Shown here: positions 22,863 through 40,820 of the stretch, in pieces | How the letters are laid out: each line of letters begins with the position of its first letter | Position numbering within the stretch: position 1 is the stretch's first letter | Translations under genes and position numbers: made by a program | DNA from: Acidimicrobiales bacterium | GTDB lineage: Bacteria; Actinomycetota; Actinomycetes; Mycobacteriales; QHCE01 | Direction of reading: 5' to 3' | Assembly: GCA_003243955.1 (NCBI GenBank) | Contig: QHCE01000033.1 | Coordinates: 1-41,407 of the forward strand | Length of the DNA stretch: 41,407 nt | Notes under the pieces: generated by a model | Told to the model about the DNA's origin: nothing | Databases searched by the model: none | What the model saw: the letters and a program-made list of their open reading frames with translations, nothing else

Positions 22863-23478
22863 AACGACTCCGGTCGGGCAACACGGTGCCGCATTGCTGG
22901 ACCCAATCCAACCAAAATTTGAGGCACTCCTCGTCTTTATGACTTATCAGCAGCGGCACTGCAGCTGCTGATAGTAGTTGATTATCTTTGGTACTTGGGC
23001 CTGTCGGCCAGCGCCATCCCGTGTGTCTTCCTACTACTTCGGCGGCACCGGCGGCCGGTCTCGTCGTAGATCGCGTCGTGTATTCGATCGGCGGCCACGC
23101 GTCGCCTGAGATCTGCGAGACCTCCTCGACGGCATTACCCAAATTCCATGACATCCCGCGGTCAGATGCGCCGGGTGGCGGCGCATTACAGACCTCGACT
23201 ACCGGCACCCGCGTCAGCCCGGGCCTTATCTATAGCGACTTCGCCTTGCGTTCTTAGATAGATCCTGTTTACACTTTGCGTACCACATAGCGAAACGGCT
23301 ATCCCATATTATGAGAAATAGTGAAATGACTAAGCACCTTCCAGTGTTGCAGCTTCCGTCATATTCGCCTGCTTATTCAACGGCACGATGACTCGGCCTT
23401 ACTAGGATGTAAGGCACCGCTGTGACTAGTAGGGCGTGCTGGTCCTCGCAACGAAATGACTGAGAAGGTGGTTGCACC
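22863..23478. other. 616-bp gene-free region upstream of the ABC importer operon
   Basis: ORFs on both strands (for example 22988-23257) show no motif, signal or family composition. The stretch must hold the promoter of the leftward membrane-protein gene and that of the importer operon. A strong palindrome sits at 22945-22973. From 23230 the DNA becomes AT-rich, including a CATATTATG palindrome near 23305, as expected of a promoter area, but no -35/-10 pair is convincing. Confidence 0.55.
22945..22973. promoter_or_regulatory. 10-bp perfect inverted repeat, candidate operator or attenuator
   Basis: TATCAGCAGC (22945-22954) and GCTGCTGATA (22964-22973) pair perfectly around nine bases. It is 83 bp upstream of the leftward membrane-protein gene, within likely promoter or 5'-UTR range. 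The symmetry suits a dimeric regulator; a hairpin in the leader RNA is the alternative. Confidence 0.45.
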
Positions 23479-24273
23479 ATGACTACTCCGTCGGTGGAAC
23501 TAAAATCGGTGCGGCGAGACTTCGTCACGCCGAGCGGTGACACGTACCCGGCGGTGCGCGACATCAACCTGGTGATTCCAGCCGGCACGTTCGTCTCGAT
23601 CGTGGGCCCTACTGGCTGCGGGAAGTCGACGATTCTCAACGTCGTAGCCGGCTTGCTGCCGCCCACCGAAGGGCAGGTGATGAGTTTCGGTAAGCCGGTG
23701 TCTGGGTTGAACGCACATACCGGCTACATGTTTCAGCAGGAAACGCTGCTGCCATGGAAGACGATCGTGGACAACGTCCGGCTCGGCCTGACCATGCGGG
23801 GGGTATCGAGTAAGGCAGCTAAGCGTGACGCTCGGTCCTGGCTCAAGCGGGTTGGTTTGGCAGGTTTTGAGGATCGCTATCCGCATCAGCTCAGCGGTGG
23901 CATGCGTAAGCGCGCCTCGATCGCTCAAACCTTGATCACCGGTCCCGAGGTCCTGCTGATGGACGAACCGTTCAGCGCGCTGGACGTGCAGACTCGGCAG
24001 GTTATGGAGAATGAACTGCTACAGCTCTGGCAAGACTCCAACACATCGGTGCTATTCATCACCCATGACCTCGACGAAGCTATCGCCCTCTCCGACGAAG
24101 TACTTCTACTCTCCTCGGGCCCAGGCAGTTCCATCATTGGACGCTTCGACGTCGAGCTGCCACGCCCGCGTGACCTAATGACTGTGCGGGATCAACCCGG
24201 TTTCACCGAGATCTACACCAAAGTTTGGTCCCAGCTGCGCCAGGAAGTGATGAAGACCTATGCAGCAATCTGA
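23479..24273 (+). CDS. ABC importer ATP-binding subunit (nitrate/sulfonate/taurine class)
   Basis: 264 residues. All nucleotide-binding motifs are intact: Walker A GPTGCGKST (near 46), Q-loop MFQQETLLPWKT, signature LSGGMRKRASIAQ, Walker B VLLMDEPFSALD, and the switch His in FITHDLDEA. The Q-loop LLPW and overall length place it in the SsuB/TauB/NrtD class. It drives uptake through the permease encoded next, whose start codon overlaps this gene by 14 bp. GAAGGTGG lies upstream of ATG 23479. First gene of a three-gene importer operon. Confidence 0.95.
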   Translation: MTTPSVELKSVRRDFVTPSGDTYPAVRDINLVIPAGTFVSIVGPTGCGKSTILNVVAGLLPPTEGQVMSFGKPVSGLNAHTGYMFQQETLLPWKTIVDNVRLGLTMRGVSSKAAKRDARSWLKRVGLAGFEDRYPHQLSGGMRKRASIAQTLITGPEVLLMDEPFSALDVQTRQVMENELLQLWQDSNTSVLFITHDLDEAIALSDEVLLLSSGPGSSIIGRFDVELPRPRDLMTVRDQPGFTEIYTKVWSQLRQEVMKTYAAI

Positions 24274-25078
24274 CCTACCCGTTCGGCGGACCGCGCGAGC
24301 CAGGGCTCGCCGCCGTCGCTGGATTGTCCACTCACTGCAGGTTGCGATCGCCGTAGTGATTCTCGGTGGCTGGCAGCTCGGCTCGAACACCGGCTTCGTG
24401 GACAGTTTTTTCTTTAGTAAGCCCAGTGATATCGCGGCGCGGGCCTATGACTGGATCAAAACCGGGTACATCCTTGACGACCTCGCTGTCACACTGCAGG
24501 AGGCGTTCTACGCCTTTGTGTTGGGATCGCTGGCCGGTGGGGCAGTGGGCTTTCTGCTCGGTCGGGTGAGGCTGCTTGCGGAAGTATTCGATCCCTACAT
24601 CAAGATGCTGAACGCACTGCCCCGGGTGGTGCTCGCGCCGATCTTCTTGCTCTGGTTCGGGTTGGGTATCTCTTCAAAGGTGGCTTTCGGCTTCACTCTG
24701 GTCTTCTTCATCGTGTTTTTCTCGACCTTCCAAGGAGTCAGAAACGTTGACCGGATACTTGTGGACAACGTGCGAATGCTGGGGGGCAAGAGACGACACG
24801 TCTTGCGACACGTCCTCATTCCGAGCACGGCGACCTGGATTTTCTCCAGTTTGCACGTCAGCGTCGGGTTCGCGATTGTGGGTGCCGTGGTCGGTGAGTA
24901 TCTGGGTGCGTCCCAGGGCGTCGGATACCGCATCGCTCAATCGGAAGGAACGTTTGACACCACCGGTGTATTCGCGGGCATGACTATCCTGACGCTCGTG
25001 GTGCTAGTTATCGATCTGGCGGTCAACCGGATCGAGCGCCGATTGTTGCGCTGGAAGCTCGACGAGCACATGACTTAG
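24260..25078 (+). CDS. ABC importer permease (SsuC/TauC class)
   Basis: 272 residues, six membrane helices after a basic N-terminus (RRTARARARRRRW). The cytoplasmic coupling loop is present: NALPRVVLAPIFLLWFGLGISSKVAFGF and later GGKRRHVLRHVLIPSTATWIFSSLHVSVGFAIVGAVVGEYLGASQGVGYRI, the EAA-type region that docks on the ATPase. It forms the homodimeric membrane channel of the importer. Overlap of 14 bp with the ATPase gene implies coupled translation; the binding-protein gene follows after 62 bp. Confidence 0.95.
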   Translation: MQQSDLPVRRTARARARRRRWIVHSLQVAIAVVILGGWQLGSNTGFVDSFFFSKPSDIAARAYDWIKTGYILDDLAVTLQEAFYAFVLGSLAGGAVGFLLGRVRLLAEVFDPYIKMLNALPRVVLAPIFLLWFGLGISSKVAFGFTLVFFIVFFSTFQGVRNVDRILVDNVRMLGGKRRHVLRHVLIPSTATWIFSSLHVSVGFAIVGAVVGEYLGASQGVGYRIAQSEGTFDTTGVFAGMTILTLVVLVIDLAVNRIERRLLRWKLDEHMT

Positions 25079-25140
25079 CTGACCAGAATTACCAGCAAGC
25101 GTTATTCTGTCCGCAGCCCACTAGAGCGAAAGATACCTCC

Positions 25141-26166
25141 ATGAAACATAAATTGTGGCGCACACGTGCGCTTATTTTCCTGCTAGCCGGGGTGCTCCTG
25201 GCAACCAGCGCATGCGGCGGCAGCGCGAAGAGCGATTCCAGCAAGTTGACGATTGGCGTCGGCGGCCAGAGCTCGCTCGTCTACCTGCCTACTACTTTGG
25301 CAGCTCAGCTGGGCTATTACCAGCAAGTGGGCCTCGAAGTAACGTTGCAAGACCTACAGGCCGGTTCGAAGGCGCTCACCGCCTTGCTCGGTGGCAGCGT
25401 GGATGTCACGTCAGGGTATTACGACCACACGATCCAGACGCAGGCTAAGGGCAAATCGATCGAGTCATTCGTCACGATGCTGAAGCTTCCAGGGATTGCC
25501 CTAGTAATTTCGCCTCAGGAACACAAGCAGATCAGCTCCATCTCTGACCTCAAGGGTGCCAAGATCGGCGTCACCGCTCCCGGTTCATCGACTGATTTTT
25601 TCTTGAACTACCTGCTTAAGTGGGCCGGCCTATCCGCGGATGCGGTCAGTCACCAGGCGATCGGCAGTGGCAGCACCGCGGTCGCGGCGATGGAACAGGG
25701 CACCGTAGACGCGGCCGTCATGATCGACCCGGCCATCTCTGAACTCCTCAAACGACAGCCTGACACGAAAATCCTGTATGACCTGCGAACGGCTGACGGC
25801 GTGCAAAAGATATACGGAACTCCGCAGTACCCCGCTGCCGTGCTTTACTCCACATCGTCGTGGGTCAAAGAGCATGCTGCCATCGCCAAGAAGTTGGCCG
25901 CAGCGATCGTCAAAACCCTGCAGTGGATCAATACCCACAGCGCCGCGGAAATTGCCGCCAAGATGCCAGCGAGCTTGGTCGGCGCCGACAAGAACCTGTA
26001 CATCAAGGCATTGAGTGCAGCTAAGCCGACCTATTCACTGGACGGAAAGATGCCACCCGAAGGCGCATCCGAGGTGCTTAAGGTATTGTCGTCAGATCCC
26101 GCGATCGCCAAGGCGAACATTAATCTTGCCGCCACGTACACGAACTCACTACTACCGCCGTCTTGA
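25141..26166 (+). CDS. ABC importer substrate-binding lipoprotein (NMT1/SsuA-like)
   Basis: 341 residues. Lipoprotein signal peptide with lipobox L-A-T-S-A-C (Cys25), so the protein is anchored on the outer face of the membrane. The mature part has the NMT1/SsuA periplasmic-binding fold: SSLVYLPTTLAAQLGYYQQVGLEVTLQDLQAGSKALTALLGGSVDVTSGYYDHTIQTQAKG, then SISDLKGAKIGVTAPGSSTDFFLNYLLKWAGL and GTVDAAVMIDPAISELL. This class binds sulfonates, nitrate, pyrimidine precursors or riboflavin-like compounds; GSSTDFF is the ligand loop but does not identify the ligand. No monooxygenase of the sulfonate pathway is linked, so the substrate remains open. Confidence 0.92.
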   Translation: MKHKLWRTRALIFLLAGVLLATSACGGSAKSDSSKLTIGVGGQSSLVYLPTTLAAQLGYYQQVGLEVTLQDLQAGSKALTALLGGSVDVTSGYYDHTIQTQAKGKSIESFVTMLKLPGIALVISPQEHKQISSISDLKGAKIGVTAPGSSTDFFLNYLLKWAGLSADAVSHQAIGSGSTAVAAMEQGTVDAAVMIDPAISELLKRQPDTKILYDLRTADGVQKIYGTPQYPAAVLYSTSSWVKEHAAIAKKLAAAIVKTLQWINTHSAAEIAAKMPASLVGADKNLYIKALSAAKPTYSLDGKMPPEGASEVLKVLSSDPAIAKANINLAATYTNSLLPPS

Positions 26167-26195
26167 TTGGCTAGTACCTCCGATGAAGGAGGATC

Positions 26196-27272
26196 ATGCC
26201 TATAGCAAGGATTTCCTACACTGAAGAAGACGCGTGGCGAGACCTGCCTATTTTACTTGGGGCAGCAGGCTTAAATGAAAGCTTAAAGAATGAAGCCGAG
26301 CTTCTTCACTACAATCAGAACAGCCTATTTCGAATTCCTTCTCTGGGAATAGTTATGCGGAATGTTCGACCGAATCCGCTGGCTGCCGGACGCGCCAAAA
26401 GGGTAGCAAAACTTGGGGAGTATTTTAGGCAATCCAGTGCCCCCACAGTGAGGTTGGCTGATGGTTTTACCCAACCTATTAACGTTGGAGACCTTTGGGC
26501 CACAATATGGAATGAAGAGGAGCGTAGGCCTAAGGATCAGATTAAAGGTCGCCATATGGGTTCCGCGCTTAAAGCGTTTCATGAGATAGATATTAGCGTC
26601 CCGGAATTGGCAGCTCTGCCTCGCTGGCAAAATCCGCTAGCGGATAGTAAAAGCCGTATCAGGCAAGGCTTCACAAAAGAACTTATAACTAAAGAGGAAT
26701 ATGAAAAACTGATCGCGTTGATGGATGAGCTTGAAAGAGATATTAGAATTGTTCGGCAACAGCTAGAAAAAATGTTTACATTACTTCACGGCGATCCACA
26801 AATAGCAAATTTATTGTTTAGAGATGACGAGCCAATATGGTGTGATTTTGATTCAACTATGATAGGTCCGTCACAAGCGGATCTTGCGGTAACCGCGGTG
26901 AACGCTATCCGCTTCAATAAGTCTGAACGGCATAAACAAGCGGCAGCTGCTTACGGCCAAGATGTAATGCAGGATGAACATTGGGATCTTTTCCGGCGGA
27001 TGCGAGAGGCAAAGTTGATTGCTTCTAATATTTTGAACCTCAAGGATCACCCAGCTATCCGGCCTGAATTTGAAAAAAGGTACCGGAGTGTTTTCGAGGA
27101 AGGTAATGAAATTTGGATTCCTTACACTGAAGCAAAGGAAAACTACGACAGCGAGAATCCAGGTTGGCTCGACCAACAGGCCTCTACTCAGACCGCGGCC
27201 AAGGTAACAGCAGATGCGGCTAGGCGGCCTCGCCCTGACTGTAGGCGACCCCGCAATCCGAGACCGAGATAG
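26196..27272 (+). CDS. AT-rich aminoglycoside-phosphotransferase-fold (APH) kinase, probably horizontally acquired
   Basis: 358 residues. The APH/choline-kinase C-lobe is clear: catalytic loop LLHGDPQIANLLF (H198, D200, N205) and metal-binding segment WCDFDSTMIGPSQADLA (D217). The N-lobe hinge and nucleotide loop are poorly conserved, so the substrate may be a small-molecule alcohol, a nucleoside antibiotic or a cofactor; resistance is only one option. ATG 26196 has a near-perfect Shine-Dalgarno (AAGGAGGATC). The DNA is visibly AT-rich (AAA, GAA, AAT, ATT, TTA codons) against GC-rich neighbours. The composition flips back near 27165-27180, and the final ~30 residues (QASTQTAAKVTADAARRPRP...) are Arg/Pro/Ala-rich, as if the original stop was lost and translation runs into host DNA. 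Confidence 0.8.
   Translation: MPIARISYTEEDAWRDLPILLGAAGLNESLKNEAELLHYNQNSLFRIPSLGIVMRNVRPNPLAAGRAKRVAKLGEYFRQSSAPTVRLADGFTQPINVGDLWATIWNEEERRPKDQIKGRHMGSALKAFHEIDISVPELAALPRWQNPLADSKSRIRQGFTKELITKEEYEKLIALMDELERDIRIVRQQLEKMFTLLHGDPQIANLLFRDDEPIWCDFDSTMIGPSQADLAVTAVNAIRFNKSERHKQAAAAYGQDVMQDEHWDLFRRMREAKLIASNILNLKDHPAIRPEFEKRYRSVFEEGNEIWIPYTEAKENYDSENPGWLDQQASTQTAAKVTADAARRPRPDCRRPRNPRPR
27163..27177. repeat. Small palindrome at the AT-rich/GC-rich junction
   Basis: GTTGG (27163-27167) and CCAAC (27173-27177) flank CTCGA at the point where the AT-rich kinase sequence gives way to GC-rich host sequence. It could mark a recombination scar; five-base arms alone are weak evidence. Confidence 0.3.
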
Positions 27273-27292
27273 CATACCTCGGCTGCGATGCG

Positions 27293-27329
27293 TTGGAGTA
27301 AGTCACTGCCACGGGTTAGACTTCCGGAT
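27293..27329 (+). promoter_or_regulatory. Predicted leaderless promoter of the MBL-fold gene
   Basis: TTGGAG (27293-27298) as -35, an 18-bp spacer and TAGACT (27317-27322) as -10 place transcription start about seven bases later, at the ATG at 27330. No Shine-Dalgarno precedes this ATG, consistent with a leaderless transcript. The gene therefore need not depend on the AT-rich kinase gene upstream. Confidence 0.45.
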
Positions 27330-28301
27330 ATGACGCTGCTGCCCGTCGATGGACTGGAGGTCCGCGTTCTTGTCGACAACGTCACCGACGGTTTGTCATC
27401 GACTCCCGCACATGTGGAGAGCGAATTTTCCTATGCCGTCCGGCGTGGTTTGCTGCGAGTCAGCGGTCGCTCGCTGTGCTGCGCTGTCCACGGACTTTCA
27501 CTGCTGTTAACGGCGCGCCGCGGTGGGCGAGAACGCACCGTTCTCTTTGATACCGGGCCTGAGGAGTACGCGTTCGAGCGAAATGCGACCCGGTTGGGCG
27601 CACCGCTGGGATCGGTTGAGGGAATCGTTTTGTCACACGGGCATTGGGACCATTGCGGTGCTGTCTTCACGGCCCTCAACTTGGCGCGGCAGGCGTCCGG
27701 TCGCACCGTCCCGGTATATATGCATCCGCAGATGTTTCGCACTCGGGCGCTACAGCTTCCCGGCGGCGCCCTCGAAGTGTTCGACGATGTGCCAAGCGTG
27801 CAGGACCTGCAAGCCAACGGAGCGGAGGTCGTGTCGACCGGTGAGCCGCAGACACTGCTCAATGGCGTGTTTCATCTATCAGCCGAAATTCCCCGCGTGA
27901 CGGAGTTCGAGCCAGGAATGCCCGGTCAGGTACGCAGGACCACCGATGGCCATTGGGAACCAGACGAGCTGGTGCTCGATGAGCGTTGGCTTGCGGTCCA
28001 CGTTGCCGACAAGGGCCTGGTTGTGTTCAGCGGCTGTTCCCACGCCGGGATCATCAATGTGCTTGAGCACTGTCGCGCCAGCTTCCCTCACGTCCCAGTC
28101 CACGCGGTCGTGGGAGGTCTGCACCTTTCGGGTCCAAACGAGCAACACATCGACCAGACCGTGCAGGCCATGCGCGGCTATGCTCCGCAGTCCATCGCGG
28201 CGGCACACTGCACCGGCTGGCGAGCCGTCCGGGCCCTAGCTGAGGCGTTCGGCGACGATGTGGTTGCACCCTCGGCCGTCGGTAAGCGCTACAGCTACTG
28301 A
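27330..28301 (+). CDS. MBL-fold metallohydrolase of the COG1237 (dihydropterin aminobenzene-phosphate synthase-like) type
   Basis: 323 residues from ATG 27330; an upstream in-frame ATG (27288) is inside the junction region. The metal site is in S-H-G-H-W-D-H-C-G (near residue 107), the HxHxDH signature with Trp, followed by the second-ligand segment SGCSHAGIINVLEH and the late motif AVVGGLHLSG...IAAAHCTGW. VRVLVDNVTDG at the N-terminus and this C-terminal GG-H-L pattern are the hallmark of COG1237, whose archaeal members make a methanopterin precursor; bacterial members are mostly of unknown function. GC-rich, unlike the AT-rich genes on both sides. Confidence 0.88.
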   Translation: MTLLPVDGLEVRVLVDNVTDGLSSTPAHVESEFSYAVRRGLLRVSGRSLCCAVHGLSLLLTARRGGRERTVLFDTGPEEYAFERNATRLGAPLGSVEGIVLSHGHWDHCGAVFTALNLARQASGRTVPVYMHPQMFRTRALQLPGGALEVFDDVPSVQDLQANGAEVVSTGEPQTLLNGVFHLSAEIPRVTEFEPGMPGQVRRTTDGHWEPDELVLDERWLAVHVADKGLVVFSGCSHAGIINVLEHCRASFPHVPVHAVVGGLHLSGPNEQHIDQTVQAMRGYAPQSIAAAHCTGWRAVRALAEAFGDDVVAPSAVGKRYSY

Positions 28302-28327
28302 CAGACCACCACGGACTCCGAACAACA

Positions 28328-28342
28328 CTACACATGTGGTAG
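28328..28342. terminator. Hairpin between convergent MBL and W-H-x-H genes
   Basis: CACATGTG (28331-28338) is a perfect 8-bp palindrome, extended by CTA/TAG with one extra G (28328-28342). It fills most of the 45-bp gap between two convergent genes and could terminate either transcript, although there is no loop or U-tract. Confidence 0.3.
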
Positions 28343-28346
28343 AAGA

Positions 28347-28841
28347 CTACTGCTGCGCGTAGAAAAGCCTTTCAATAAGCTTGAGGTCATTCGTTGGCTC
28401 TTTGTCGGTTATATTTTGAATCATGGTTTTCTCTTCTGGGTCTTCAAAGACAAGCGTATAAAGCGGAGTGTTCTTGTTGTACTGGCAGCCGGGAAATAAC
28501 AAGTGATGATGCCATTCGATACCCTGAGTACGTAGCTCCTTGGCTCTTTCCACTATCCGTTTCGTGTCTTCCGAAGGACCAGGCTTTCCATCGATTTGCT
28601 CTTTTTGCAAAATTTTACTGCCGTGCAGTAAAGGAGCAAGCTCTTGACCCAGATTGTGCTCCAGCTTGTCTGAGTAGTGGACTAAATTACTATTATTTTC
28701 CAGGTCTTCAAATACAAAAGCATATTGAGGTCTAACGTTAAATGCGCAGTTGGGTGTCAGAATATGGAAATGCCACCGCGCTCCTCTATTTGCTAACATG
28801 TGTGCCGCTTTTCTGATGGTCTCAAGCGGTACTTCTTTCAT
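28347..28841 (-). CDS. AT-rich protein with two copies of a W-H-x-H-x5-C module
   Basis: 164 residues from ATG 28841, which lies nine bases after a strong AGGAGGTG; an in-frame GTG at 28853 overlaps that site and is rejected. Two modules repeat every ~87 residues. Module 1 has W23-H24-F-H26, C32, N35, Y40 and VFED (43-46). Module 2 has W110-H111-H-H113, C119, N122, Y128 and VFED (131-134). The shared pattern is G-x-x-W-H-x-H-x-L-x-P-x-C-x-x-N. The paired His and Cys suggest metal or cofactor binding, one site per module. No signal peptide. I recognise no characterised family. Like the APH-fold gene at 26196 it is visibly AT-rich, which points to transfer. It is convergent with the MBL-fold gene. 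Confidence 0.75.
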   Translation of the reverse strand: MKEVPLETIRKAAHMLANRGARWHFHILTPNCAFNVRPQYAFVFEDLENNSNLVHYSDKLEHNLGQELAPLLHGSKILQKEQIDGKPGPSEDTKRIVERAKELRTQGIEWHHHLLFPGCQYNKNTPLYTLVFEDPEEKTMIQNITDKEPTNDLKLIERLFYAQQ

Positions 28842-29023
28842 CACTTCATGCACCTCCTCGTTTATGAGTGTCGAATCTGCAGTAGTGCAGCGTCGGAGTG
28901 TGGAACGGCTCCCAGCCCTAAAATGGTGACACGTCTGAGTTTATGGCCATGCTGCCCAGGCCCGTCTCGGCTGGTCTGGCGACAGACCCGGAGTATGCAG
29001 CTTGGGATGGGGTGGTCTGAGCC

Positions 29024-29038
29024 ATCGCATGCTGCGAT
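29024..29038 (-). terminator. Possible terminator hairpin of the sigma factor gene
   Basis: ATCGCA-TGC-TGCGAT is a perfect 6-bp stem with a 3-base loop, 41 bp past the stop codon of the leftward sigma factor gene. Flanking GCC/GGC could extend it with mismatches. No U-tract follows. Confidence 0.35.
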
Positions 29039-29078
29039 TGGGCAGGGAGCGGTCGGCCGCGCGGATGATGCCAGTCGA

Positions 29079-29831
29079 CTAGGACCGTACGGATCGCCAA
29101 CCTAGCCACTTGAGCTGGGTGGGGCGGTGCCGGCCGCGGTAGGACAGCACCGCTTTACGGATGGCGCCGCCGCCGGTGCGCTGAGAGGGCGGGTTTGGTG
29201 TGAGGCAGTCACGCAGGCGGATCAGCCTGCCGTGGATTCCGGTCTTGGCGGTGTCGCCGGGCATCCTGAGGATGCGGGTGACCTGTTCGTAGGTGTAGTC
29301 GTGATAGTAAGCCAGCACCAGCGCATGCCGTTGCAGCGAGGTCAATCTGCTGCGGAGCTCGGTGTATTTGGCGTGAGTGTCGAACTGGTCGGTGACGGGG
29401 TCGTCGACTAGGATGGTCCAGATGAGCTGCCCAGCCGCGTCTTCTCGGCGGCACCGGTCCTGCTCAGTGCGGATCCGGTCGACGGCGGCATAGTGGGTGG
29501 TGCTCAAGATCCATCCGACGCCGCTGCTCTGGCCGGGGTGGTATCTGTTGGCGTTACACCACACTCGCACGAACACCTCCTGGGTGAACTCCTCAGCTTG
29601 TGCCCTGTCGCGTATCAGGCGACAGGCCAGCCCAAGCACCCGTGAAGCGAGCAGGTTGTAGAGCTCACCGAACGCCGCCATATCGTCCCCGGCCACTTTG
29701 GTGAGCAGAGCTTCCACAGCATCACTGCGTGCTCCGGTGAGAGGCCGGGTGCCTCGGGCTTGTCGGGGCATGCCATGGTTGTTACGGCCACCTGCCGACA
29801 GCTGGCCGTACAGCGAGGTAAAGCCGCCCAT
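29079..29831 (-). CDS. ECF sigma factor, SigK-like, with a basic C-terminal extension
   Basis: 250 residues from ATG 29831, which follows GGGGGA; typical SigK-like factors are about 190. Region 2 is clear: AAFGELYNLLASRVLGLACRLIRDRAQAEEFTQEVFVRVW then NRYHPGQSSGVGWILSTTHYAAVDRIRTEQ. Region 4 is LTSLQRHALVLAYYHDYTYEQVTRIL followed by MPGDTAKTGIHGRLIRLRDCL; the usual 'GTVKTRI' core is altered to DTAKTGI. The last ~40 residues (TPNPPSQRTGGGAIRKAVLSYRGRHRPTQLKW) are a basic tail not found in standard members, and about 45 residues precede region 2. No anti-sigma gene (RskA type) is adjacent. It directs RNA polymerase to an unknown stress regulon. Confidence 0.85.
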   Translation of the reverse strand: MGGFTSLYGQLSAGGRNNHGMPRQARGTRPLTGARSDAVEALLTKVAGDDMAAFGELYNLLASRVLGLACRLIRDRAQAEEFTQEVFVRVWCNANRYHPGQSSGVGWILSTTHYAAVDRIRTEQDRCRREDAAGQLIWTILVDDPVTDQFDTHAKYTELRSRLTSLQRHALVLAYYHDYTYEQVTRILRMPGDTAKTGIHGRLIRLRDCLTPNPPSQRTGGGAIRKAVLSYRGRHRPTQLKWLGWRSVRS

Positions 29832-30173
29832 GTGTCCCCCGGAAATTTTCCCGGCGAGGTTATCGTCGGGTCGCCAGGGTCTAGGGCGTTGAAGCTGCAC
29901 GGATTTTCGTCTACCAAGCAACCGACTCTGGTGCCGGCGGCCGACGACGCGCTCGGGTTACTCTAACACGGTCGGACGTAATCCTCGGTTCTCAACAAAG
30001 TGCACGCAGGATCTGGCGATTGAGATCAGGAGCACCGAGGGCCAGCTCTTCAAGGTCGAGGCGTGCGAGTATCAACAGACCGGAACGTCCGTGTGGATGG
30101 CGGTGCGCAGCATCAATGCGACGAAGGAGCTCGGTTATGCAGCGTTCCGCGCCCCACTTCGGGCTGATGCGAG

Positions 30174-30902
30174 ATGGCTGAGCTGGAGGCCTTGCGGGCC
30201 GCGGTGTTGGCCGCGCTCGACGATCCAGATGCAGCCGCTGGCGTGGACGCGGTGGGGCGTGTGTGTCGAGCGTGTGTGCGACTGTTGCCGGTGGACGGCG
30301 CCGCGGTGTCGATCATGTCCGATGCGCAGAATCGGGAAACGGTCTATGCCAGTGACGCGGTGAGCGTCGCGTTGGGGGAGTTGCAATTCTCTCTGGGCGA
30401 GGGCCCATGTTTCCAAGCCTATGCCACCGGTGGCCCGGTGCTAGTGCCCGATCTGGCCAAGGCCGCTGCGCCGCACTGGCCGGTGTTCGCCGCGCAAGTG
30501 GCTGACTATCCAGTGGGGGCGTTGTTCACGTTCCCGGTGCAGATCGGAACGATCCGGTTGGCCACCCTAGACACCTACCGAACAACAGCCGGGCCGCTGA
30601 GCGCGGCGGAGTTGTCGGTGGCACTGCAGGTGGCCGACATTGCTGCGCTGGCATTGTCGGGACTCGCCGCCGGGGATGACTCGTGGCTGGATGAGGACGG
30701 GCGGTGGTTGGAAGAATCATCGACGATGCGGCATCGTCAGGTGCACCAGGCCACCGGTGTGCTGATCATCCAATTAGAACTACCCGCCGGGCAGGCGCTG
30801 TCGCGTATGCGGGCGTATGCGTTCAGCCACGACCGGCCGTTGGCCGACATTGCCGCGGATATAGTCGGCCGCCGGCTGCTATTGGTTGAAGACCAGGGAT
30901 AA
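30174..30902 (+). CDS. GAF-ANTAR regulator 1
   Basis: 242 residues. A GAF sensor (about 10-160: CRACVRLLPVDGAAVSIMSDAQ, FSLGEGPCFQAYATGGPVLVPDLAK, ALFTFPVQIGTIRLATLDTYR) is followed by an ANTAR domain (about 180-235: RHRQVHQATGVLIIQLELPAGQALSRMRAYAFSHDRPLADIAADIV). ANTAR proteins bind paired hexaloop hairpins in nascent RNA and prevent termination. The ANTAR tail here is a somewhat degenerate version (usual QAKGVLM reads QATGVLI). ATG 30174 has a weak ribosome site (GCGAG). The next gene follows 49 bp later on the same strand and encodes a second protein of the same build, so the two probably act or dimerise together. Confidence 0.9.
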   Translation: MAELEALRAAVLAALDDPDAAAGVDAVGRVCRACVRLLPVDGAAVSIMSDAQNRETVYASDAVSVALGELQFSLGEGPCFQAYATGGPVLVPDLAKAAAPHWPVFAAQVADYPVGALFTFPVQIGTIRLATLDTYRTTAGPLSAAELSVALQVADIAALALSGLAAGDDSWLDEDGRWLEESSTMRHRQVHQATGVLIIQLELPAGQALSRMRAYAFSHDRPLADIAADIVGRRLLLVEDQG

Positions 30903-30951
30903 AGGGAAAGATGCAACGTCTAGACTTGCCCGTATACCTAAGGAGAACGTG

Positions 30952-31701
30952 ATGGCCATACGTGAAGGGCGGGTCGCCCAGGCGTTCGTGGAGTTGGCCG
31001 ACACGCTGGTCGATGACTATGACGTTGCTGACCTGCTGCATACCCTGGCGGAGCAGTGCGTGCGGTTGCTGGATGCCGCCGCGGCCGGGCTGCTGCTGGC
31101 CGATCAACGTGGCAGCCTGCAGGTGCTGGCCTCCTCAAGTGAAGGGGCCAGGCTGCTAGAGTTATTCCAGCTACAAACCGAAGAGGGTCCCTGTGTGGAG
31201 TGTTTTCACACCCAGGCCCCGGTGCTGGTCGCCGACATTGCCGCGCAAAGCCACCGGTGGCCGCAATTCGCCGCCGCAGCCAGCCGCGAGGGGTTCGTCT
31301 CGGTGCATGCACTGCCGCTGCGGCTACGGACCCAGACCATCGGAGCGCTGAACCTGTTCGGTCGTGAACGTGGTGCACTGTCGGAAGAGGATCTGCGACT
31401 GGGCCAGGCGCTGGCCGATACCGCCACCATCGGCATCCTGCAGGAACGCGCGATCCATCACAGGGAAATCTTGGTCGAACAGTTGCAGACCGCCTTGAAC
31501 AGCCGGGTGATCATCGAGCAGGCCAAGGGGGTGCTCGCCACGGTCGGCAACCTTGACATGGGTGCGGCGTTCATCGTGTTGCGAACCTATGCTCGCAACC
31601 ACAGTGCCCGACTGAGCGAGGTCGCCCGCGACCTTGTCGAACGTGACCTCGATGCCACCACTGTGCTGGCCGGGCACCTAGCGCCGCGACCGACTATCTG
31701 A
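30952..31701 (+). CDS. GAF-ANTAR regulator 2
   Basis: 249 residues from ATG 30952 (AGGAGAACGTG upstream); the 30886 frame is rejected. The GAF domain (about 15-170) includes LHTLAEQCVRLLDAAAAGLLLADQRG, the ligand-lining TEEGPCVECFHTQAPVLVADI and VHALPLRLRTQTIGALNLFG. ANTAR domain (about 185-240): ALNSRVIIEQAKGVLATVGNLDMGAAFIVLRTYARNHSARLSEVARDLV, complete with the canonical EQAKG core. It should link an unknown small-molecule or redox signal to RNA-level antitermination. It follows regulator 1 with a 49-bp gap, likely one operon. Convergent with the CDF transporter gene. Confidence 0.92.
   Translation: MAIREGRVAQAFVELADTLVDDYDVADLLHTLAEQCVRLLDAAAAGLLLADQRGSLQVLASSSEGARLLELFQLQTEEGPCVECFHTQAPVLVADIAAQSHRWPQFAAAASREGFVSVHALPLRLRTQTIGALNLFGRERGALSEEDLRLGQALADTATIGILQERAIHHREILVEQLQTALNSRVIIEQAKGVLATVGNLDMGAAFIVLRTYARNHSARLSEVARDLVERDLDATTVLAGHLAPRPTI

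Positions 31702-39323: not shown

Positions 39324-40820
<1,497 letters not shown>

Follow-up and report, generated by a model that had tools for sequence, protein, structure and literature searches.

Three adjacent genes of apparently different descent in a probable actinobacterial contig, one of them with Patescibacterial affinity

Introduction

When genes of odd composition lie side by side in a bacterial genome, did they arrive together, or does each have a history of its own? We ask this here for a locus in contig QHCE01000033.1 of assembly GCA_003243955.1 (Acidimicrobiales bacterium). The whole contig (C89), 41,407 bases long, is the window of this study; it comes from a 2.42-Mb assembly of 91 contigs that is 94.8% complete. 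The locus holds, in this order, a gene for a small-molecule kinase of the APH fold, one for an MBL-fold hydrolase and one for a two-repeat protein that we name after its W-H-x-H motif. An earlier note on this DNA, whose positions for the three genes agree with the list of open reading frames (ORFs), had suggested that they might be a single transferred module and form a functional unit.

We consider it the probable, if by no means assured, answer that the site is instead a patchwork of three genes of different descent, acquired separately and lying side by side, and not a module that travels. Judged from their sequences, the neighbours appear to differ in affinity: the kinase sides with an actinobacterial APH group, the MBL protein with proteobacterial relatives and the W-H-x-H protein with Patescibacteria. 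The last of these affinities, that of a two-repeat family, is the part most worth following. The locus also carries a warning for genome reading: each of the three odd neighbours seems to have a history of its own.

Results and discussion

Two AT-rich islands around a gene of host-like composition

The kinase gene (26196..27272, + strand) encodes 358 residues and the W-H-x-H gene (28347..28841, − strand) 164; the MBL gene (27330..28301, + strand) lies between them. We compared their GC content at third codon positions (GC3) with that of 293 host ORFs, sampled over 347.6 kb of this genome. At 0.426, the kinase is lower than every one of these, and the W-H-x-H gene (0.473) stands at the 1.0 percentile, whereas the MBL gene (0.686) stands at the 73.7 percentile. 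Within the contig itself, where the 42 program-called ORFs of the window served as reference, the kinase and the W-H-x-H gene have the two lowest values. Maximum-likelihood change points delimit two AT-rich islands with normal-GC DNA between them: island 1 (26116..27145, about 1.0 kb, GC 0.45; 2-lnL limits 25985-26272 on the left and 27124-27194 on the right) and island 2 (28321..28886, about 0.57 kb, GC 0.44; limits 28278-28360 and 28849-28958).

Both AT-rich genes are preceded by strong Shine-Dalgarno sites, AAGGAGG for the kinase (26186..26192, + strand; longest exact match 7 bases) and GAGGAGGTG for the W-H-x-H gene (28851..28859, − strand; 8 bases). Matches of at least 7 bases occur in 14 of the 293 host ORFs and in 3 of 39 window ORFs, namely these two genes and the ORF at 30886-31701; such sites are therefore rare, not unique. 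The earlier note had thus described the locus aptly in three respects: two AT-rich genes surround a GC-normal one, their ribosome-binding sites are uncommon among the neighbours, and their foreign look is supported by composition, and for the W-H-x-H gene by its distribution and phylogeny as well. The separate promoter that it had assigned to the MBL gene did not emerge from a sigma-70 consensus scan of 23000-30200, which gave one site, at 23479, and is weak evidence either way.

Could the islands stem from the assembly, as foreign fragments joined into the contig, or could the contig have been binned from another organism? The assembly is fragmented, as its 91 contigs attest, and the marker ArgG (39324-40805) points to no particular family: its six best plasmid-record matches come from Streptantibioticus, Streptomyces, Nonomuraea and Embleya at 86-88% identity, and G001, the sole other genome of the host's family in our sample of relatives, is about equally close at 88%. 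As ArgG is no nearer to G001 than to Streptomyces, the contig can be assigned to the actinobacteria, not to a family, and we regard the window's genome as probably actinobacterial on this sequence evidence. An artefact nevertheless seems very unlikely to us. Each AT-rich island has GC-normal genes of the same contig on both sides, the two genes stand out in GC3 even within that contig, and a chimera would seldom return twice within 3 kb; mis-binning alone would leave the patchwork unchanged.

No co-occurrence of the three families at the loci searched

Seventeen stretches of DNA, each 10.6-19.5 kb long, were examined for the three genes: five lay around W-H-x-H genes, and four each around kinase genes, MBL genes and genes of the ABC importer that lies upstream of the kinase. 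None of the 17 held two of the three genes, and the four importer loci with long flanks (L131-L134) had no adjoining kinase, MBL or W-H-x-H gene. Likewise, neither kinase nor MBL gene was found in the flanks (8 kb; 5 kb for L048) of 18 W-H-x-H loci from a wide genome scan described below, and neither kinase nor W-H-x-H gene at seven plasmid loci with an MBL gene (flanks of 2-8 kb). The kinase was also absent from all 11 whole genomes with a W-H-x-H gene; this search contained no internal positive control, but its query did match in the relatives sample.

A single module of kinase, hydrolase and metal-binding protein, arriving and working together, would agree with the adjacency of the genes and with the likeness of two of them in AT content and ribosome-binding sites. 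We find it highly improbable: in addition to the lack of co-occurrence, the genes have three different closest relatives, the AT-rich DNA falls into two islands with a GC-normal gap, and the W-H-x-H gene lies on the opposite strand. Since the families were not found together and differ in their closest relatives, the module proposed earlier is not supported. As for an empty site, none was found; G001 gave no match to the importer binding protein, and the 295 kb of its approximately 3.0 Mb that were read show nothing either way.

A W-H-x-H gene of probable Patescibacterial descent

The ORF of the W-H-x-H protein, which falls in no named family, opens at 28853; its real start is most likely the ATG at 28841, because homologues begin there. 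The gene is a rarity in its surroundings. Apart from the window's own genome, none of 60 relatives and none of 295 class members has it (1/61 and 1/296 with the window's genome counted; the two samples overlap), which makes the window protein the only member of its family found among the actinobacterial genomes searched. A scan of a collection of 84,980 species with a five-row alignment confirmed 18 loci; as the scan depends on a pair of short conserved peptide patterns, it would miss relatives that do not have them. Its top match was Candidatus Saccharibacteria UBA5148 with 47-48% identity, followed at 35-37% by two small-celled archaea, Candidatus ainarchaeum and a Micrarchaeota genome, while the remaining 15 loci belong to Pseudomonadota (24-32%). 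Among Patescibacteria the gene is rare as well: with UBA5148 counted, it occurs in 2 of 294 genomes of that organism's class and in 5 of 314 of its phylum.

A tree of 22 rows makes the window protein sister to UBA5148 (support 99/94) and sets four Patescibacteria, the two archaea and the window apart from the 15 Pseudomonadota rows (100/100). The approximately unbiased (AU) test rejects a clade of the four Patescibacteria that excludes the window (p-AU 0.00025) and a union of the window with the Pseudomonadota rows (p-AU 7e-5); it does not reject Patescibacteria plus window as a single clade (p 0.23). Without the two long Patescibacterial rows, the pair of window and UBA5148 persists (97/92), and the remaining Patescibacterium, G670, moves near the middle of the tree. 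Given composition, distribution and phylogeny, the W-H-x-H gene is probably of Patescibacterial descent, and a transfer from the Patescibacterial side into the window genome is the simplest reading of its tree; the route of such a transfer we infer.

This direction of transfer is of interest beyond the locus. According to passages of PMC12102498, Saccharimonadia have been co-cultured with hosts that include actinobacteria, and they possess a conjugation-related type IV secretion system on which the epibiotic growth of one strain depends. Parts of two further studies concern gene exchange: 43 genomes of the candidate phyla radiation (CPR) from a sludge plant yielded 84 transfer events (PMC10031880), and groundwater Patescibacteria are described as both recipients and donors (PMC12455944), with a table in the latter listing, for transfers into Patescibacteria, 109 from Patescibacteria and 1 from Actinomycetota. 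In those parts, both studies centre on Patescibacterial genomes, whereas here one family is placed by a tree in a probable actinobacterium. Among the titles listed in our literature searches, none concerned transfer from Saccharibacteria into actinobacteria. A rare family that can be placed by a tree, and whose nearest found relative is Saccharibacterial, makes the direction from Patescibacteria to other bacteria testable, and the recipient probably belongs to the very phylum on which Saccharibacteria are cultured. As a tentative scenario, which we hold possible and still somewhat doubtful, a Saccharibacterium-like epibiont would have given the gene, with its ribosome-binding site kept, to an actinobacterial lineage that hosted such cells. 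If so, contacts between symbionts and hosts would be the path along which this family of small metal- or ligand-binding proteins spreads. Carriage by viruses was considered and set aside, as the W-H-x-H protein has no confirmed relative in viral contigs or phage records.

An MBL gene that is probably foreign despite its host-like GC

The gene in the middle encodes an MBL-fold hydrolase with the motif HGHWDH (PF00753, 37.7 bits against a cut-off of 22.7). Its ORF opens at 27288 and ends at 28301; the start is probably at 27330, since homologues align from about the 14th-15th codon. The protein matches 2p4z over residues 65-313 (E 2.3e-24) and has HGHWDH and GCSHAG in common with MBL-fold hydrolases of that kind, a group for which we take COG1237 to be the label. 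An assignment to the subclass B3 beta-lactamases was rejected, the NCBIfam equivalog scoring 19.9 bits against a cut-off of 240.

The earlier note had offered, besides the module, two independent insertions on either side of a resident gene. The composition of the MBL gene agrees with this, as its GC3 is host-like, and so do its relatives near the host in part: among 40 of them, five have strong matches at 39-41% identity and four more have weak partial ones. The nearest listed relatives are, however, proteobacterial. The best 12 of 215 matching plasmid records include Microvirga (58-61%, top 60.5%), Rhizobium (52-54%), Marinovum (51%), Legionella (49%) and, at 38%, Streptomyces nigrescens, and G001 from the host's own family has no match. 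The actinobacterial rows are 37-41% identical to the window protein, and in the tree six of them group together (100/100), separate from the window and from six proteobacterial rows. Constraining the window to the actinobacterial rows costs only 0.5 log units, and the AU test does not reject it (p-AU 0.448), since the window possibly has a basal position in the other group. Thus, the window MBL is nearest to proteobacterial members, whereas the host's sampled relatives carry another MBL type or none. Since its nearest listed relatives are proteobacterial (60%), as opposed to at most 41% in the 40 relatives, we conclude from the sequences that the MBL gene is probably foreign too, less certainly so than the W-H-x-H gene; of the two-insertion proposal, the host-like composition stands, the residence of the gene probably does not, and we judge it unlikely overall. 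Host-like GC did not imply a resident gene here. In viral contigs, no confirmed relatives of the MBL protein were found.

An AT-rich kinase on a long actinobacterial branch

The kinase is assigned to PF01636 (42.6 bits, cut-off 23.2). Aligned with 36 homologues, its catalytic stretches HGDPQIANLLF and CDFDST (with DFD) are intact; they correspond to HGDxxxxN with a downstream DFD, which we take to be the APH catalytic motif. As 32 of the 36 homologues stop by its residue 313, its last ~45 residues are extra: the ORF continues to residue 358 in DNA whose GC content rises near 27124-27194. This GC-rich 3' end (27164..27272, + strand), delimited by the alignment together with the change points, was probably non-coding DNA before.

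With the window's own genome counted, the kinase has matches in 75 of 246 genomes of the class, where the best apart from itself has 35% identity; in the overlapping samples of relatives and of the phylum, the figures are 11 of 41 and 7 of 139. It is also matched by 21 plasmid records, from Streptomyces, Nocardia and Nonomuraea, which, like ArgG, point to an actinobacterial genome. In a 37-row tree, it joins the genomes G015 and same-family G001 with support of 99/98, on a branch of length 2.29 that was flagged as long and of odd composition. By sequence, it appears to belong to the actinobacterial APH group, with which it shares the fold family and the catalytic stretches, and from which it differs in its AT-richness, its long branch and its C-terminal tail. 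Its nearest rows have a GC3 of 0.61 (G001) and 0.81 (G015), and their genes adjoin others with helix-turn-helix matches (45.6 bits, above the cut-off of 27, and 20.5, below it), unlike the window kinase, which sits behind an ABC importer.

Could the two AT-rich genes nonetheless share a donor? An actinobacterial kinase may have entered a Patescibacterial symbiont, turned AT-rich quickly there and returned together with the W-H-x-H gene. The kinase nests with actinobacterial rows in spite of its branch length and low GC3, as this would predict, and of eight codon tables, those of the Patescibacteria G366 and G699 beat the host's for both genes. Kinases of this kind are, however, all but missing from the proposed donors: weak partial matches, and no others, came from 4 of 294 genomes in the UBA5148 class and 1 of 182 in its phylum, and UBA5148 itself had no convincing one. 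We therefore reject a Patescibacterial origin of the kinase for now, and give the single donor hardly any credence.

How the site may have been assembled

In the patchwork that we favour, the site is flanked by the ABC importer operon and, on the other side, by a gene for an ECF sigma factor. The W-H-x-H gene would have come from Saccharibacteria-like Patescibacteria on a fragment of about 0.57 kb that included its own ribosome-binding site. The MBL gene would probably have a proteobacterium-like source, either one of similar GC or one from which it came long enough ago to adapt. The kinase, from the actinobacterial APH group, was probably brought via an unsampled low-GC genome, as its strong divergence and AT-richness suggest, and its ORF would run about 45 codons beyond the usual end of its family into GC-rich DNA. 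Since its start is 30 bp from the end of the importer operon, in the same orientation and with a strong ribosome-binding site, it is probably co-transcribed with the importer; it may phosphorylate a hydroxylated small molecule, perhaps the importer's cargo. The MBL protein would be a separate metal-dependent hydrolase, and the W-H-x-H protein a soluble pseudo-dimer, each repeat of which has one H-x-H...C...N...E set.

Several observations weigh against this reading. No transposase or integrase was found among the 29 window proteins scanned (of 42 program-called ORFs), and neither island has significant flanking repeats or an insertion scar. The codon choice of the W-H-x-H gene cannot decide its origin, since the tables of UBA5148 and the host fit almost equally (−1.202 and −1.213 per codon); two other Patescibacteria fit slightly better (−1.146, −1.147). 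Furthermore, the window genome and Patescibacteria may possibly have received this gene from a common unsampled source, as it is rare in Patescibacteria and their rows are long-branched. For the MBL gene, the search beyond the sampled relatives covered plasmid records only, of which 132 of 215 are from Enterococcus (none among the best 12), and an actinobacterial placement is tolerated, as described above. Lastly, the nearest rows of the kinase include the host's own family, and it is possibly a fast-evolving resident gene.

The ends of the islands were also compared. TTGGCT occurs at both ends of island 1 (26167 and 27164), a 6-base match that is within chance. At island 2, a nested inverted match reaches a p of 0.06 by a same-genome null; the best-scoring alignment was another one. 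The elements concerned, ACTCCGA-gap-CACTAC in inverted orientation (28315-28331 and 28882-28899), were noticed post hoc and are not significant in a general test; neither the window nor the 347.6 kb sampled from the genome contains them again.

The W-H-x-H protein and its predicted role

The conserved residues of the W-H-x-H protein form two equivalent sets, W23, H24, H26, C32, N35 and E45 in the first repeat and W110, H111, H113, C119, N122 and E133 in the second. An alignment of 19 sequences, the window protein among them, has 19 invariant positions; the window protein keeps both repeats and all of these positions, and its halves match each other with 38% identity over 52 residues. In the Pfam and NCBIfam listings, all 19 family members stay below cut-off, and the best PHROGs match of the window protein has an E of 0.24. 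An assignment to the CpXC proteins (PF14353) falls short, with 20.5 bits against a cut-off of 25.4 and a match at E 0.1 in 1 of the 19 members.

The predicted model is of high confidence (mean pLDDT 93.9, pTM 0.85) and shows an alpha-beta-beta-beta-alpha topology in each repeat. At E 0.001, Foldseek matched it to neither PDB entries nor viral models. Comparison with the PDB yielded weak similarities, with SRP9/14 proteins at Z 5.2-6.2, below the tool's trust level of Z 8, and an FtsH domain equalling the best of these (Z 6.2). The SRP9/14 pair 1914 overlays 134 residues of the model (Z 5.8, root-mean-square deviation 5.2), and double-stranded RNA-binding domains were found by Foldseek at E 0.0048 or worse. 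These folds share the topology of the model, but with 6-16% identity and Z below 8 no sequence kinship is demonstrated; going by the model, the matches would mean a common arrangement, not a function. A literature search for bacterial SRP9/SRP14 homologues with an Alu domain fold found nothing pertinent. Given its paired histidines and cysteine, the protein most likely binds a metal or small ligand, so that the family offers a confident model and two equivalent conserved sites for a function that is as yet inferred only.

In the flanks of the Pseudomonadota members (16 records, two of them named only Proteobacteria), relatives of GntR (15), an FAD-oxidoreductase (14) and an SDR protein (12) recur, a pattern that hints at a part in the breakdown of amines or amino acids in these organisms. 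The window member has no such neighbours, and none were found in the flanks of seven Patescibacterial and archaeal W-H-x-H genomes. The Pseudomonadota loci with this pattern are L003, L035-L047 and L049, part of which also include amino-acid ABC transporter genes. For a defence role, no PADLOC family matched, except for one match of the W-H-x-H protein at E 0.028.

Two further observations concern the family. The Patescibacterium G826 has a one-repeat relative in a 76-codon frame (L124:9788-10003; also L120), which is perhaps the ancestral half of the family; on this view, a single domain that formed dimers would have been duplicated to give the two-repeat form. Furthermore, an AAA_33-domain gene is found close to the W-H-x-H gene both in the Patescibacterium G670 (L121:10948-12513) and in an unrelated proteobacterium (L048:3187-4833); of the two, only the latter is listed with APH, and at E 1e-4 the window kinase had no match at either locus. 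The genes that precede the AAA_33 gene at L121 presumably encode a phosphatase-like and an NTP pyrophosphatase-like protein.

The shoulders of the locus and the wider genome

On the left, the importer operon (23479..26166, + strand) encodes an ATPase, a permease and an NMT1/THI5-type binding protein, the last with strong matches at 38-43% identity in 6 of 60 relatives and none in G001. No tRNA was found in the window, nor any RNA element at gathering score between 20000 and 34000. Elsewhere in the same genome, further ORFs have a low GC3 (0.445-0.477): L096:10807-11445 and L087:7136-8608, which have no Pfam match at E 0.001, and L092:17467-19287, which carries helix-turn-helix domains. On the right, the ECF sigma factor (29079..29921, − strand) has a host-like GC3, and next to it two GAF-ANTAR proteins are encoded side by side (30174-31701).

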